Shown: positions 10,495 through 21,647 of the stretch, piece after piece
How the letters are laid out: the number at the start of each line of letters is the position of its first letter
How positions within the stretch are numbered: the first letter of the stretch is position 1
Source: a virus
Reading direction: 5' to 3' (one strand)
DNA: 22,673 nt
Virus record (IMG/VR): IMGVR_UViG_3300047553_000021
Span: 1 to 22,673 of that record
Made by a program: the position numbers and the translations under genes
Notes under the pieces: generated by a model
What the model saw: the letters and a program-made list of their open reading frames with translations, nothing else
Database searches by the model: none
Told to the model about the DNA's origin: nothing

Positions 10495-11936
10495 TGAAAA
10501 GTCCGATCCTTGGTGCAAGCTATGTGGCCCGCAGCGTCAATGCTGCGGACAACCGCATGGTGAACCTTTTCCCCGAGTTGGTCCCCGAAGGTGGCAAAGA
10601 ACCTGCGTTCTTGAGCCGCTGCCCGGGGCTGCGCCGCAAGGCGACGGTTGGCACAGGTCCGATTCGTGGATTGTGGCAAACCAAAGGAGTCATGTATGCG
10701 GTGTCAGGCGACACCTTTTACAAGGTCGAGACATACGGTAGAACACGCCTCAAAGGCACAGCAATCGGCACGGTGACAGGTACTGGGCCTGTGTCCATGT
10801 CTGACAACGGCACGCAGATTTTTATCGCCTGCAATCCTGATGGATTCATTTACAACATCGTCACCGAAGTCTTTGCCCAGATCACAGACCCCGATTTCCC
10901 CGGCGCTGTAACCGTGGGCTATTTGGACGGCTACTTTGTGTTCAACGAACCCGACAGTTCCCGCGTGTGGGTGACTGCATTGCTCGATGGTCTATCGGTT
11001 GACCCGTTGGACTTTGCAAGCGCCGAGGGCGATCCTGATGGTTTGGTGTCTTTGATTGTTGACCACCGTGAAGCGTGGCTCTTTGGCACCAACTCAATCG
11101 AGGTTTGGTATGACGCAGGGCTGCCAGACTTCCCCCTACAGCGCATCCAAGGCGCTTTTAACGAGATTGGTTGTGCTGCCGCATATTCGGTGGCCAAACT
11201 CGACAATGGTGTGTTTTGGCTAGGTGCTGATGCCCGTGGTCGTGGTATTGTCTATCGTGCCAATGGGTATACAGGTCAGCGCATCTCAACGCACGCTGTT
11301 GAATGGCAAATTCAGCAGTATTCCGATATTTCGGACGCAATTGCCTACACCTACCAACAAGACGGTCACGCGTTCTACGTGCTCATTTTCCCATCGGCGC
11401 AGACCACATGGGTCTACGATGTGGCTACGCAGTCATGGCATGAGCGTGCCGGTTGGTCCAATGGTGACTTTGTTCGCCATCGCTCAAACTGTCAGGTGTC
11501 TTACAACAACGAGATCATCGTAGGTGACTACGAGAACGGCAATTTGTACGCCTACGATCTTGAGGATTACACCGACAACGGCGACATCCAAAAATGGTTG
11601 CGTTCATGGCGTGCTTTGGGCACCGGTCAAAACAACCTCAAGCGTAGCGCACAACACACCTTGCAGATCGATTGTGAGTCAGGTGTGGGCACGAACACGG
11701 GTCAGGGTAGCGATCCGCAAATGATGCTACGTTGGTCTGACGATGGTGGCCACACATGGTCAAACGAGCGTTGGGTGTCAATGGGTAAGATTGGTGAATA
11801 CTACACCCGAGCAATCTTCCGTCGCCTTGGTATGACGCTAAAACTGCGTGACCGTGTCTATGAAATATCAGGCACCGATCCAGTCAAAGTCGCTATCATG
11901 GGGGCCGAACTTTATGTGACGCCTACCAATGCCTGA
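10494..11936 (+). CDS. Packaged-DNA stabilisation protein (P22 gp10-like)
   Basis: In P22, gp10 forms the tail hub below gp4. This 480-residue protein (P22 gp10 has 472) shows the family start SPILGASYVARSVNAADNRM and NLFPELVPEGGKEPAFL. Next come the pattern CPGLR and, through the middle, beta-propeller-like repeats such as VGYLDGYFVFNEPDSSRVWV and GTNSIEVWYDAG. The C-terminal part has MLRWSDDGGHTWSNERW, seen in the same family and in tail hub proteins. Translation is coupled to gp4-like by TGATG; no separate ribosome site is seen. It overlaps the fibre gene by 8 nt. Confidence 0.9.
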   Translation: MKSPILGASYVARSVNAADNRMVNLFPELVPEGGKEPAFLSRCPGLRRKATVGTGPIRGLWQTKGVMYAVSGDTFYKVETYGRTRLKGTAIGTVTGTGPVSMSDNGTQIFIACNPDGFIYNIVTEVFAQITDPDFPGAVTVGYLDGYFVFNEPDSSRVWVTALLDGLSVDPLDFASAEGDPDGLVSLIVDHREAWLFGTNSIEVWYDAGLPDFPLQRIQGAFNEIGCAAAYSVAKLDNGVFWLGADARGRGIVYRANGYTGQRISTHAVEWQIQQYSDISDAIAYTYQQDGHAFYVLIFPSAQTTWVYDVATQSWHERAGWSNGDFVRHRSNCQVSYNNEIIVGDYENGNLYAYDLEDYTDNGDIQKWLRSWRALGTGQNNLKRSAQHTLQIDCESGVGTNTGQGSDPQMMLRWSDDGGHTWSNERWVSMGKIGEYYTRAIFRRLGMTLKLRDRVYEISGTDPVKVAIMGAELYVTPTNA

Positions 11937-14001
11937 ACAACAAAACATAACCAATATTCCGTCCAACCGGGTTGATTTCATCGACCCGCGCACGGGTTTG
12001 GTTTCGCGTGAATGGTATCGGTTTTTCTTAAATCTGTTTAACTTAGCAGGTGGCGGCGGCAACCAAACATCTTTAGACGATTTGCAAGTCGGTCCACCCC
12101 CTCAACCGGTTTCTGATAGCGGTGGTGGCGGTGGTTCTGGAACTGTGACATCTGTAGATGTGTCTGGTGGCACAACTGGTTTGACCACCAGCGGTGGTCC
12201 TATTACCTCGAGTGGCACGATCACATTGGCAGGCACATTAAATGTCGCTAACGGTGGTACAGGTGCTACTACGGAAGCAGGCGCTCCATTTGCGCTTAAA
12301 GGTGCAAACGCTGACATCACCAGCATGACAGGTGTGACAGGTGGCATTTCGTCACCTGATTATGTGCAGTTCGACACAACCTATGCCACAACCTTGGGTG
12401 TTGGTCAACTTGGATGGGATGGCAACGACACCCTCGGTCTGGGCATGATCGGTGGCAACGTCATCCAACACATCGGTGAAGACCAATTCTTCTACTGCAA
12501 AGCATCGTCGGCCATCACCAAAGGTCAAGTGGTCATGTTCACCGGTGCCGTGGGTGCTAGTGGTGTGCCCACAGGCGCACCTGCTACGGGTATCACCGAC
12601 GGCACATACATCATGGGTGTTGCCGCAGAAACGATTGCGCTAAATGGTTTTGGTTTGATTCAGACTTTTGGCACGCTGCGTAACGTCAACACATCGGGAT
12701 ATGCCGATGGTGACATCCTTTGGTACAACCCTGCTGTTACAGGTGGGTTGACAAGCACTAAGCCCTCGGCACCCAATGTCAAAGTACAAATGGCCGCTGT
12801 GATCAATGGTGGCTCTGCTGGCGGCGGCACGATTTTGATCCGCATCGACCCCGGCTCAACGCTTGGCGGCACCGACTCCAACGCGCAGATTGGTACTCCG
12901 AGTAATGGCCAAATCATTACGTATGACGGCGCTGCGACTTACTGGAAAAACACCACGCTGACCGCAGGCACGGGCATCTCGGTGACGGCTGCTTCTGACG
13001 GTACGTTGACAGTCGCCAACACTAGCCCGTCATCGGGCGGCACCGTCACTTCGGTGGCCATGACTGTCCCGACCGGTCTGTCGATCAGCGGCAGCCCAAT
13101 CACTACTTCGGGTACGCTGGCGGTGACATACACAGCAGGCTACTCGATCCCTACCACCGCAAGTCAAACAAATTGGGATACCGCGTATTCCGAACGTTTG
13201 CAATGGGACGGTGGTTCGACGAATCTGGTTGCCGCAACTGGCCGCACATCCCTCGGGGGCACCACGGTTGGCCAGAACATGTTCACGCTCACCAATCCGA
13301 GTGCGATCACGTTCCCACGGTTTAACGCTGACAACACCGTTTCCGCGCTGACAGCCTCGGCGTTTCGCACAGCCATCGGCGCGGGCACAGGGGATGGCAC
13401 GGTCACCAGCGTCACGGGTACGTCACCTGTGGCCTCAAGTGGGGGCACAACGCCTGCAATCAGCCTTTCCAGCGGCTACGGTGACACACAGAACCCCTAC
13501 GCCAGCAAGACAGCAAATTATTTCTTGGCCGCGCCCAACGGCTCGGCAGGTGCGCCCACGTTCCGCGCTATCGTGGCCGCAGACATCCCCACCTTGAACC
13601 AGAACACTACGGGCACCGCATCCAATGTCACGGGCACCGTGGCCATCGCCAACGGCGGCACGGGTCAAACCACCAAAACCGAGGGGTTCGACGCACTGTC
13701 GCCCACCACGACAAAGGGTGACTTGATTGTTAGCAACGGGACAGACAACGTCCGTCTTGGTGTGGGCGCGGACACCTACGTGCTCACCGCTGACTCAACC
13801 GCGTCAAGCGGTGTCAAGTGGGCAGCGGCTGCGGGTGGTGGTAGTAACATCACAGCCCAAGGAATGTGGGAGAATGCGCTCACAATCTCGTCAAACTACA
13901 CCATCACGTCAGGTAACAGCGCAATGTCTGCTGGTCCCATCACGATTGCCTCTGGTGTGACCGTGACCATTCCGTCTGGCTCACGTTGGGTTGTTGTTTA
14001 A
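11929..14001 (+). CDS. Repetitive tail fibre protein
   Basis: A 690-residue protein in the slot where P22 has the tail needle gp26. The N terminus contains RVDFIDPRTGLVSREWYRFF, a conserved attachment segment of many phage fibres. Residues 60-80 are a Gly-rich linker. Then come fibre-type repeats: three GTVTSV segments (71-76, 368-373, 490-495), each followed by a variable stretch, and two NGGTGxTT motifs (about 107-114 and 569-576). The C terminus (about 640-690) is a beta module with SGPITIASGVTVTIPSG-like strands ending SRWVVV, shared with the fibre at 19022. It begins inside the gp10-like gene with no clear ribosome site, so it is coupled. The receptor is unknown. Confidence 0.85.
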   Translation: MPEQQNITNIPSNRVDFIDPRTGLVSREWYRFFLNLFNLAGGGGNQTSLDDLQVGPPPQPVSDSGGGGGSGTVTSVDVSGGTTGLTTSGGPITSSGTITLAGTLNVANGGTGATTEAGAPFALKGANADITSMTGVTGGISSPDYVQFDTTYATTLGVGQLGWDGNDTLGLGMIGGNVIQHIGEDQFFYCKASSAITKGQVVMFTGAVGASGVPTGAPATGITDGTYIMGVAAETIALNGFGLIQTFGTLRNVNTSGYADGDILWYNPAVTGGLTSTKPSAPNVKVQMAAVINGGSAGGGTILIRIDPGSTLGGTDSNAQIGTPSNGQIITYDGAATYWKNTTLTAGTGISVTAASDGTLTVANTSPSSGGTVTSVAMTVPTGLSISGSPITTSGTLAVTYTAGYSIPTTASQTNWDTAYSERLQWDGGSTNLVAATGRTSLGGTTVGQNMFTLTNPSAITFPRFNADNTVSALTASAFRTAIGAGTGDGTVTSVTGTSPVASSGGTTPAISLSSGYGDTQNPYASKTANYFLAAPNGSAGAPTFRAIVAADIPTLNQNTTGTASNVTGTVAIANGGTGQTTKTEGFDALSPTTTKGDLIVSNGTDNVRLGVGADTYVLTADSTASSGVKWAAAAGGGSNITAQGMWENALTISSNYTITSGNSAMSAGPITIASGVTVTIPSGSRWVVV

Positions 14002-19765: not shown

Positions 19766-20332
19766 ATGAGTTCTGTTGTTCTTACTGGCGACACATCTGG
19801 CTCAGGAACTATCACAGTTCCAGCTGTCGCTGGCACTTTTACCGCAACAATTGGGTCTGCCACAGGCACTCACTATCCGTTTACCGCTGGAACTGCTGTT
19901 GCATCCACTAGCGGAACATCAATTGATTTCACCTCAATTCCGTCTTGGGTTAAACGCATTACTGTTATGTTTAGCGGGGTTAGTACGAACGGGACAAGCA
20001 ATCCGCTTATGCAAATTGGCGCTGGAAGTGTTTTGACATCTGGCTATCTCGGCAGCGCACAAACAATTAGCACAACTGGAATTGCAACTACAGGATGGGC
20101 TTTAAGCGCATCTACTGCGGCAACATCTATATTTAACGGGTCTGCCGTTATAACTAATATGGGAAGTAATGTTTGGTCTATGTTTGGGGTCATAGGTTAT
20201 TCAAACGCCGCAGGTGTTGCTATGTTTGGCGGCTCAGTTTCTCTTGGCGGCATTCTAGACCGCGTTCGTATCACCACCGTCAACGGCACAGACACATTTG
20301 ACGCTGGCTCTATTAACATCTTGTACGAATAA
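19766..20332 (+). CDS. Receptor-binding candidate, paralogue A
   Basis: A 188-residue, Gly/Ser/Thr-rich beta protein. After a 41-residue N-terminal part with TGDTSGSGTITVPAVAGTFT it has the shared block GTAVASTSGTSIDFTSIPSW (42-61), then VKRITVMFSGVSTNGTS. A variable centre follows (about 80-165), then the shared end NGTDTFDAGSINILYE. It is homologous to the products at 20509 and 21117. The domain, seen in other phages near fibres, is probably a single jelly-roll-like unit; function unknown, receptor binding inferred from position after the head-binding fibre. AAGGAG lies just upstream of the ATG. The centre differs from its paralogues most strongly. Confidence 0.8.
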   Translation: MSSVVLTGDTSGSGTITVPAVAGTFTATIGSATGTHYPFTAGTAVASTSGTSIDFTSIPSWVKRITVMFSGVSTNGTSNPLMQIGAGSVLTSGYLGSAQTISTTGIATTGWALSASTAATSIFNGSAVITNMGSNVWSMFGVIGYSNAAGVAMFGGSVSLGGILDRVRITTVNGTDTFDAGSINILYE

Positions 20333-20350
20333 TCAATAAAGGACTTCAAA

Positions 20351-20509
20351 ATGACTACACCTACACGCATCATCGTAGACTTGGCAACAGGTCAATCCAC
20401 AGAAGTTGAACTCCAAGGCGCTGAGTTGGAAGCATACAACGCTTCGTTGGCTCAACAAGCCGCAGAAGCTGCTGCCGCTGAACAAGCTAATCCTGTCGAG
20501 GGTCAATAA
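20351..20509 (+). CDS. 52-residue protein between paralogues A and B
   Basis: ATG 20351 to TAA 20507-20509, with AAGGA (20338-20342 region) as ribosome site; the stop shares its last A with the next ATG (TAATG). The product starts MTTPTRIIVDLATGQSTEVE, continues LQGAELEAYN and ends in an Ala/Gln/Glu-rich helix (SLAQQAAEAAAAEQANPVEG). Short proteins with an N-terminal strand pair (RI.VD..TG....VEL) and a Glu/Ala helix are often encoded next to fibre genes, and some are fibre-assembly chaperones; that role is a guess here. It is the only non-paralogue inside the cassette array. Confidence 0.65.
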   Translation: MTTPTRIIVDLATGQSTEVELQGAELEAYNASLAQQAAEAAAAEQANPVEGQ

Positions 20510-21114
20510 TGTCCACGATCATTAACGCATCAACCTCGTCTGGGTTAGTTCAGACAGCAGACACCAGTGGAACGCTGGAACTGCAAAGCAACGGCACTAC
20601 ACAGCTTACTGTTTCTTCTACTGGCGCTTATGGTCAGTTGAAGTCTGGAACTGCTCAAGCGTCCACATCGGTCACTTCGATTGATTTCACGGGTATCCCA
20701 TCATGGGTAAAGCGTATCACTGTTATGCTATACGGTGTAAGTACGTCCTCAACAAATCCAGCCAGAGCCCAATTAGGAACTGGAGGAACGCCCACTTATA
20801 TTGCTTCAGGGTATGCAGCATCTGCTGCTGCTCTTGGAAGTGCAAACACAACGGCAATAACTGCATTTACTGATGGATTTCCTTTTTCTCGCACATCTGT
20901 CGCAGCAGATACTGTATCGTCAATTATGACACTCGTAAAAATAACGGGGAATATTTGGGAAGCTAGTGCAAACACAAGAACATCTGGAAATACCGTGTTT
21001 AGTGTTGTGTCGGGCCAAGTAGATGCTGGTGCAGAAGTAACCGCTCTAAGAATAACAATCAACGGAACAGACACCTTTGACGCTGGTTCCATCAACATTC
21101 TTTACGAGGGCTAA
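20509..21114 (+). CDS. Receptor-binding candidate, paralogue B
   Basis: A 201-residue beta-rich protein, the most diverged of the three. Its N terminus (SSGLVQTADTSGTLELQSNG, then TTQLTVSSTGAY) is a recurrent phage-fibre motif not shared with A or C. The common block follows: GTAQASTSVTSIDFTGIPSW (47-66) and VKRITVMLYGVSTSSTN. The centre (about 84-175) is unlike A and C, and the shared end NGTDTFDAGSINILYE is followed by an extra Gly. The last codons (TACGAGGGC) provide GAGGG as ribosome site for the next gene. Its own start overlaps the previous stop, with GAGGG (20498-20502) upstream. Confidence 0.78.
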   Translation: MSTIINASTSSGLVQTADTSGTLELQSNGTTQLTVSSTGAYGQLKSGTAQASTSVTSIDFTGIPSWVKRITVMLYGVSTSSTNPARAQLGTGGTPTYIASGYAASAAALGSANTTAITAFTDGFPFSRTSVAADTVSSIMTLVKITGNIWEASANTRTSGNTVFSVVSGQVDAGAEVTALRITINGTDTFDAGSINILYEG

Positions 21115-21116
21115 TC

Positions 21117-21647
21117 ATGTCAGTTGTAATCAATGGCTCCGCAGGGGTCACAACAAACTCAGGTGCTGTGTATAACGGCATTTCTTCTGGCACTGCGGTT
21201 GCCTCAACCAGCGGAACAAGCATTGATTTCACTTCTATCCCGTCATGGGTGAAGCGTATTACTGTGATGTTCAATGGAGTATCGACAAATGGAACATCTG
21301 CATATCAAATTCAAATAGGTGATTCTGGTGGTATTGAAAATACTGGCTATTCATCAAGTGCATCACGAATATCAACAACAGTAACAACTCAAAACGGTAC
21401 GGCTGGTTTTGTTTTGTTTGGCGGCGCAACAGCTGCCGCAGCTGTATATCAAGGATATTTTACTATTTCATTGCTTGGCTCTAATGCTTGGTGTATGCAA
21501 GGGGCCATTGCCGATGTAACCAATACACAAACGCAAGTATCGTGTGGTTCTAAAACATTGTCAGACACGCTCACGCAAATCCGCATCACAACAGTCAACG
21601 GCACAGACACCTTTGACGCTGGTTCAATCAACATCTTGTATGAGTGA
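21117..21647 (+). CDS. Receptor-binding candidate, paralogue C
   Basis: A 176-residue protein closest to paralogue A. It begins MSVVINGSAGVTTNSGAVYN, has the shared block GTAVASTSGTSIDFTSIPSW (25-44) and VKRITVMFNGVSTNGTS, identical to A except for one residue, a different centre (about 63-152, with two Cys at about 127 and 145), and the shared end RITTVNGTDTFDAGSINILY. Its start is 3 nt after gene B, with GAGGG as ribosome site. Its end overlaps the holin-like gene by 8 nt, so the array runs straight into lysis-type genes. Confidence 0.8.
   Translation: MSVVINGSAGVTTNSGAVYNGISSGTAVASTSGTSIDFTSIPSWVKRITVMFNGVSTNGTSAYQIQIGDSGGIENTGYSSSASRISTTVTTQNGTAGFVLFGGATAAAAVYQGYFTISLLGSNAWCMQGAIADVTNTQTQVSCGSKTLSDTLTQIRITTVNGTDTFDAGSINILYE

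Follow-up and report, generated by a model that had tools for sequence, protein, structure and literature searches.

A probable split tailspike in a P22-like podovirus, with a short anchor and separately encoded tip proteins whose centres are exchanged among related phages

We analysed a 22,673-base virus record, described as aquatic and bacterial (the whole of this stretch of DNA is called the window below), and propose that it probably encodes a split tailspike, in which a virion anchor is accompanied by co-translated, separately encoded and swappable tip proteins. Matches to the P22-type portal (PF16510, E 4.5e-174) and coat protein (PF11651, E 1.3e-39) indicate that the genome is that of a P22-like podovirus. 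A tail accessory factor of P22 type was also matched (E 2e-4), as was an ejection protein, the latter below the Pfam threshold. A second contig, IMGVR_UViG_3300043443_000195, is 100% identical to the window in the anchor, the upstream protein and the first tip, and the two records apparently represent one phage population sampled twice.

The anchor or adaptor gene (P0004, 19022..19756, plus strand) encodes 244 residues, with a head-binding region followed by a fibre-type C-terminal segment. Residues 7-91 match the tailspike head-binding domain of PDB 7eeq (E 1.2e-9), PHROG tail and fibre families were also matched, and no Pfam domain, enzymatic or otherwise, was found. This agrees with an earlier note on this DNA, which had assigned the 19022 product a tailspike-type head-binding domain and no enzymatic domain. 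The AlphaFold model of the anchor is poor (pLDDT 55). A 690-residue fibre-like protein encoded at 11929-14001 ends in a motif, GPITIASGVTVTIPSGSRWVVV, that resembles the one in the anchor, which suggests that the two proteins share a C-terminal segment.

Downstream lie three genes for small proteins, found where the earlier note had placed them and with the lengths it gave: tip protein 1 (P0001, 188 residues, 19766..20332), tip protein 2 (P0002, 201 residues, 20509..21114) and tip protein 3 (P0003, 176 residues, 21117..21647), all on the plus strand. In a search of 6,729 open reading frames, copies 1 and 3 matched at E 7e-40, copies 1 and 2 at E 4e-27 and copies 2 and 3 at E 3e-27, a similarity far past chance by which the three are clear paralogues. 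The array that had been described thus stands as a set of paralogues but is not strictly contiguous, as a 52-residue gene (P0005, 20351..20509, plus strand) separates copies 1 and 2, the start of tip 2 overlapping its stop. P0005 has no match in Pfam or PHROG, is kept in place in five relatives (L247, L249, L250, L252 and L254), and possibly has an assembly-related role. In other relatives, genes weakly similar to the tail-assembly chaperone PF16778 (sub-threshold) lie inside the array. An AGG-type ribosome site precedes each tip gene in the window, and the starts of copies 2 and 3 are at the preceding stop or a few bases from it, such that these two copies look translationally coupled. A search for internal promoters and terminators gave no excess of motifs over shuffled sequence.

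Each tip consists of an N-terminal stub, a constant N block, a variable centre and a constant C block, on the plus strand throughout. In tip 1, the slot-1 stub begins MSSVVLTGDTSGSGTITVPAVAG and is followed by the N block (GTAVAST...GVST, 19889..19987), the centre (19988..20266) and the C block (RITTVNGTDTFDAGSINILYE, 20267..20329). Tip 2 has a slot-2 stub that begins MSTIINASTSSGLVQTADTSGTLELQSNGTT, with the N block at 20647..20745, the centre at 20746..21048 and the C block at 21049..21111. The slot-3 stub of tip 3 is MSVVINGSAGVTTNSGAVYNG, and its N block, centre and C block occupy 21189..21287, 21288..21581 and 21582..21644. The N block of the tips reads GTAVAST..TSIDFTSIPSWVKRITVM..GVST, their common C block reads RITTVNGTDTFDAGSINILYE, and the invariant columns of the three are GTA.AST...TSIDFT.IPSWVKRITVM..GVST together with the end NGTDTFDAGSINILYE. 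The shared block that the earlier note had listed (GT-AST-SIDFT-IPSW-VKRITVM-GVST) and the common end are therefore present in all three tips, and the centres, as it had also stated, are strongly different (22-37% protein identity among the three copies); the N-termini differ too. At the DNA level, the blocks show up as two three-copy repeat families, one of 110 nt that is 69-75% identical to its reference copy and another of 67 nt that is 70-85% identical.

This pattern of constant borders and variable centres is a trait of a large family, beyond the three genes of the window. Searches of viral contigs each returned at least ~590 relatives of the tips. We collected 329 unique full-length genes; among these, the N block carries ~3.3-3.7 bits, most of the centre 1.3-2.2 and the C block 3.4-4.1. 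One to five copies are found per locus, and copies from the same locus are as divergent as random copies (0.33 vs 0.33). One locus (L150:5914-9470) has five clustered tip domains, one of them on a 354-residue fibre-type protein. A Pfam search of the tips gave no hit, Pfam being without a model for the tip, and revealed no enzymatic domain. Two PHROG families, 29482 (unknown; 477 positions) and 18673 (tail fibre; 373 positions), match the tip domain, but these are profiles of longer proteins and not of stand-alone tandem arrays.

Structure prediction for tip 3 gave a confident beta-sandwich over residues 25-176 (AlphaFold mean pLDDT 90.2, pTM 0.83). The constant strands are 25-30, 35-38 and 47-57 in the N block and 154-159 and 166-175, the final strands, in the C block, and the strands between them, in the centre, are mostly variable. 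The solved neighbours retrieved by Foldseek include galectin-8, Toxoplasma MIC1 and the receptor-binding protein head of phage Tuc2009. In VIA-align, legume lectins and galectins rank at the top and make up most of the matches (best Z 7.5 over 133 residues at 3.5 A; no chain at Z >= 8), a middling resemblance that is suggestive of a lectin-like fold for the predicted tip. Sequence searches of the PDB, run with one tip copy and with a profile of 110 sequences, gave no match, and the predicted structural relatives among viruses are in many cases larger, uncharacterised phage proteins.

The presence of stand-alone tips is complementary to the length of the anchor. Recognised tip-family genes lie within 3.2 kb downstream of 64 of the 65 short anchors (219-308 residues), the remaining one (L259) having other fibre-like genes downstream, and stand-alone tip-type genes follow none of the ten long anchor relatives (413-700 residues); Fisher's test gives 1e-11 for this association, a value that is overstated as the genomes are related and independent transitions are few. 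The stand-alone genes after short anchors belong to several unrelated tip families, and the C-terminal region of the long proteins of L299-L301 is a stand-alone gene in L268, L282, L286 and L181. Across the family the tip domain is almost always at the extreme C-terminus. It ends longer proteins in cultured phages (Rhizobium RHph_N65 and RHph_N3_2, and Pelagibacter HTVC019P gp43), follows an Mtd_N domain in gp15 of Pseudomonas phage AH02, and is joined to a tail-fibre N-terminus (PHROG 18673) in the 354-residue fibre of L220. The tip of this last protein and the 194-residue stand-alone tip of L213 differ at 0 of 261 centre nucleotides.

Because short anchors have tips, long ones have none and the same tip domain occurs on long fibres, the earlier suggestion that the 19022 product is an adaptor and the three proteins its tips is supported, and the tip domain is, by its position in these genes, probably a fibre tip. 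Alternatively, the tips might be capsid decoration or other virion-surface lectins outside the tailspike, a reading in keeping with their lectin-like fold and with their lack of a recognisable virion-attachment domain. We consider it decidedly unlikely, given that tip presence follows the length of the tailspike anchor and that this tip also occurs joined to the N-termini of tail fibres. In three relatives (L162, L163 and L164) the upstream 751-residue protein is 81-85% identical and no anchor or tips are found at the corresponding place; L162, in which this protein is 85% identical and the cassette is missing here, carries, at another place in its record, an open frame of 640 residues whose N-terminus is of the anchor type.

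Comparison of relatives shows that the centres are exchanged between phages; this evidence comes from pairs of relatives and from no pair of the window genome with a close neighbour. In L295 and L296, the anchor gene, the stub and the near downstream DNA are ~90-100% identical and the centre is 35-57% identical over ~280 nt, with 7 of 156 nucleotides differing in the borders versus 136 of 246 in the centre (p 4e-29). The same contrast between border and centre inside the gene is seen in L154/L058, L277/L302, L295/L302 and L074/L185. L025/L028 show the reverse, with an identical centre (0/258) and with 25 differences in 120 border nucleotides. By P0003 numbering, the junctions lie at residues 56-59 and at residues 152-161, in or beside the constant blocks, and the variable centre of tip 3 matches the segment exchanged between relatives. 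The uniform divergence without breakpoints that the earlier note had named as a refutation of its reading is thus not what the relatives show. A further candidate mosaic, L060/L067, was dropped, as shifted copies had been aligned, seemingly within the same phage.

Rapid evolution of the centres under positive selection, with no exchange, could also yield the alternating variable and conserved positions seen in the centre strands, which are expected of an exposed face. Stub and N block match in 18 pairs, several of them non-independent; their centres are at the floor of identity in 6, at least 95% identical in 11 and intermediate in 1, so that intermediate identities are nearly absent. Moreover, the synonymous sites of swapped centres have diverged as well where the flanks are 90-100% identical (for example, 9 of 20 fourfold sites identical in the centre vs 25 of 29 in the borders). 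Fast protein selection alone is therefore excluded for these pairs, and rapid evolution without exchange, contradicted for the relatives, is extremely improbable as a general account.

In close relatives each of the three positions keeps its own N-terminal stub (stubs are 24-46 residues long) while the tips vary. Slot-2 stubs are 77-90% identical in nucleotides to that of the window in five relatives with unrelated centres, and the slot-1 stub is 80% identical in L247 and L249, the tip of L249 belonging to a different family. In L251, L253, L255 and L257, slots 1 and 2 are occupied by a family other than that of the window tips, which in L251, the record tested, matched PHROG 11355 (tail fibre). 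Related tips with centres 70-90% identical (13 pairs) have a stub class in common in 46% of cases and flanking DNA in none, and for centres 55-70% identical stub sharing is at the level of chance (20% vs 19%). Stub class shows no clear association with the tip tree (125 changes vs 130.1 +/- 3.2 when shuffled); SH-aLRT >= 80 is reached by only about half of the branches of this tree (109 of 212), and the pairwise comparison of stubs and flanks is the better test.

Peptidase_S74 proteins occupy other slots in some relatives. As these carry a chaperone domain, and as the tips are small and directly 3' of a fibre gene, the tips could be fibre-assembly chaperones or transient caps (Tfa-like or S74-like) that fold or shield the anchor and do not bind receptors; such caps have been described in Alteromonas phages (PMC10579305). 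We regard this function as unlikely. Full-length fibres end in the tip domain at their C-terminus, one anchor would have to be served by several divergent copies per genome, and the hypervariable centre is swapped independently of its surroundings, whereas a chaperone must fit its client.

The earlier note had attributed the exchange to conserved DNA borders. The exchange itself is borne out in relatives, but DNA borders as its driver are not: identity at fourfold sites of the N border is 0.32-0.42 among the copies of the window versus 0.34 in random pairs from different phages. Because this is near the random level, what the borders keep constant is the protein and not the DNA; in the N block, no DNA motif common to the family is conspicuous. 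We infer that the borders form a structural frame that lets swaps survive, DNA identity helping only between close phages. RecT was not found in the relatives and an Erf-type annealing protein was found in 2 of 10, so there is no uniform recombinase to which the exchange could be ascribed.

It may also be asked whether the three copies form a reservoir that is actively rewritten within the genome, by gene conversion through the borders, a retroelement or an invertase. Constant borders with variable centres would be expected, and the within-locus fourfold identity of the N border across the family is slightly above that of random pairs (0.43 vs 0.34). However, no within-locus pair exceeds 0.72, the values for the window are near random, and clean swaps occur between phages. 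Gene conversion among the three copies was rejected, as the fourfold sites give no signal of recent exchange inside this genome. Also rejected were a diversity-generating retroelement, an invertase and an integrase: reverse transcriptase (PF00078) had no match in nine related records (the window being a fragment), and resolvase and integrase (PF00239 and PF00589) had none in ten. Active diversification within the genome is thus very unlikely. The use of the tips as alternatives to one another, which had been suggested, is likewise unsupported, as the genes are intact and closely spaced, with apparent coupling of copies 2 and 3, and as the search of relatives revealed no enzyme for switching.

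Under the split tailspike proposed here, the 19022 product would dock on the P22-like tail by its tailspike head-binding domain and would have no tip of its own. Each downstream gene would give a small tip made of a slot-specific N-terminal stub and a ~150-residue lectin-like beta-sandwich, the stubs presumably docking on the anchor. The N and C border strands would be the constant part and the middle strands the variable and presumably receptor-contacting part. As the genes lie close together and co-translation is probable, the virion probably bears several tips of different specificity, with no switching. The middle ~100 residues would be swapped between phages by recombination, with junctions in or beside the protein-conserved borders, and whole tips would also be replaced by unrelated tip families or moved onto the long fibres of other phages. 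We infer that the tips are in the virion, docked on the anchor, bind receptors and are used in combination; centre swaps would be a plausible natural way to change the cells that are gripped.

Modular exchange of receptor-binding proteins is already known, with T-even gp38 and branched adaptors as precedents. The gp38 adhesins (T2, S16 and PP01) are small, separate fibre-tip proteins with constant motifs around reshuffled hypervariable receptor-binding segments (PMC6630733, PMC12892980), an arrangement that the tip family resembles. However, gp38 combines glycine-rich motifs and a poly-glycine-II sandwich with several hypervariable loops, all short, whereas the tips, at one to five paralogues per locus, have a predicted beta-sandwich that is lectin-like and has strands throughout, a single exchange unit of ~100 residues and border blocks that are not glycine-rich motifs; no sequence relation was found. 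In branched systems (Klebsiella KP32 RBP1/RBP2 and the Ackermannviridae TSPs), an anchor protein carries added, exchangeable receptor-binding proteins, which in KP32 attach by a conserved peptide at their N-terminus (PMC13082707, PMC11414711). Similarly, the anchor here has a virion-attachment domain (the 7eeq match). The slot stubs, conserved while the tips differ, are candidate docking peptides. Unlike those large depolymerases or tailspikes, most of the added proteins here are ~120-330 residues with no enzymatic domain found, and the anchor is without a tip, whereas KP32 RBP1 carries a receptor domain.

In P22, the tailspike is a single protein that includes an enzymatic beta-helix. It shares with the present system the virion type and the type of head-binding domain at the N-terminus of the anchor, but anchor and tips are here on separate genes. 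The likeness to Mtd of Bordetella phage lies in the tip relative behind Mtd_N in AH02 gp15 and in variability concentrated in one region; Mtd is a tropism determinant diversified by a retroelement, whereas here whole segments are replaced and the nine relatives lack a reverse transcriptase. Unlike the invertible tail-fibre segments of Mu and P1, the tip copies are all in the same orientation, and the ten relatives lack PF00239 and PF00589. A limited, open-access text search found no description of a P22-like tipless anchor with several small swappable tip proteins.

Aquatic phage metagenomes are rich in tail genes of unassigned role. If the split tailspike is correct, the host-range determinants of uncultured P22-like phages would include a large family of proteins that are short and uncharacterised. 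As the unit of exchange and its junctions are located to within a few codons, a change of host range by trade of a ~100-residue module would be directly testable, and the modules would provide a sequence handle for receptors shared among uncultured phages. Going further, we tentatively entertain, at somewhat less than even chances, that one virion bears several different lectin-like tips simultaneously on a common anchor and that an AT-rich centre of ~100 residues is traded freely among unrelated aquatic phages; each phage would then sample a shared pool of receptor specificities rather than evolve its own.

Family-wide, the GC content at fourfold sites is 0.26 in the centres and 0.40 in the borders and stubs of the same genes (p 1e-38), as if the AT-rich centres belonged to a separate pool, although this difference may have other causes. 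Relatives of the tips also occur outside viral records, in stretches that may be prophage or contaminating phage. Among 84,980 genomes of bacteria and archaea scanned, only 6 such relatives were found (L324-L329), in bacterial metagenome-assembled genomes assigned to Opitutae, Saccharibacteria, Patescibacteria, Mesorhizobium and others.
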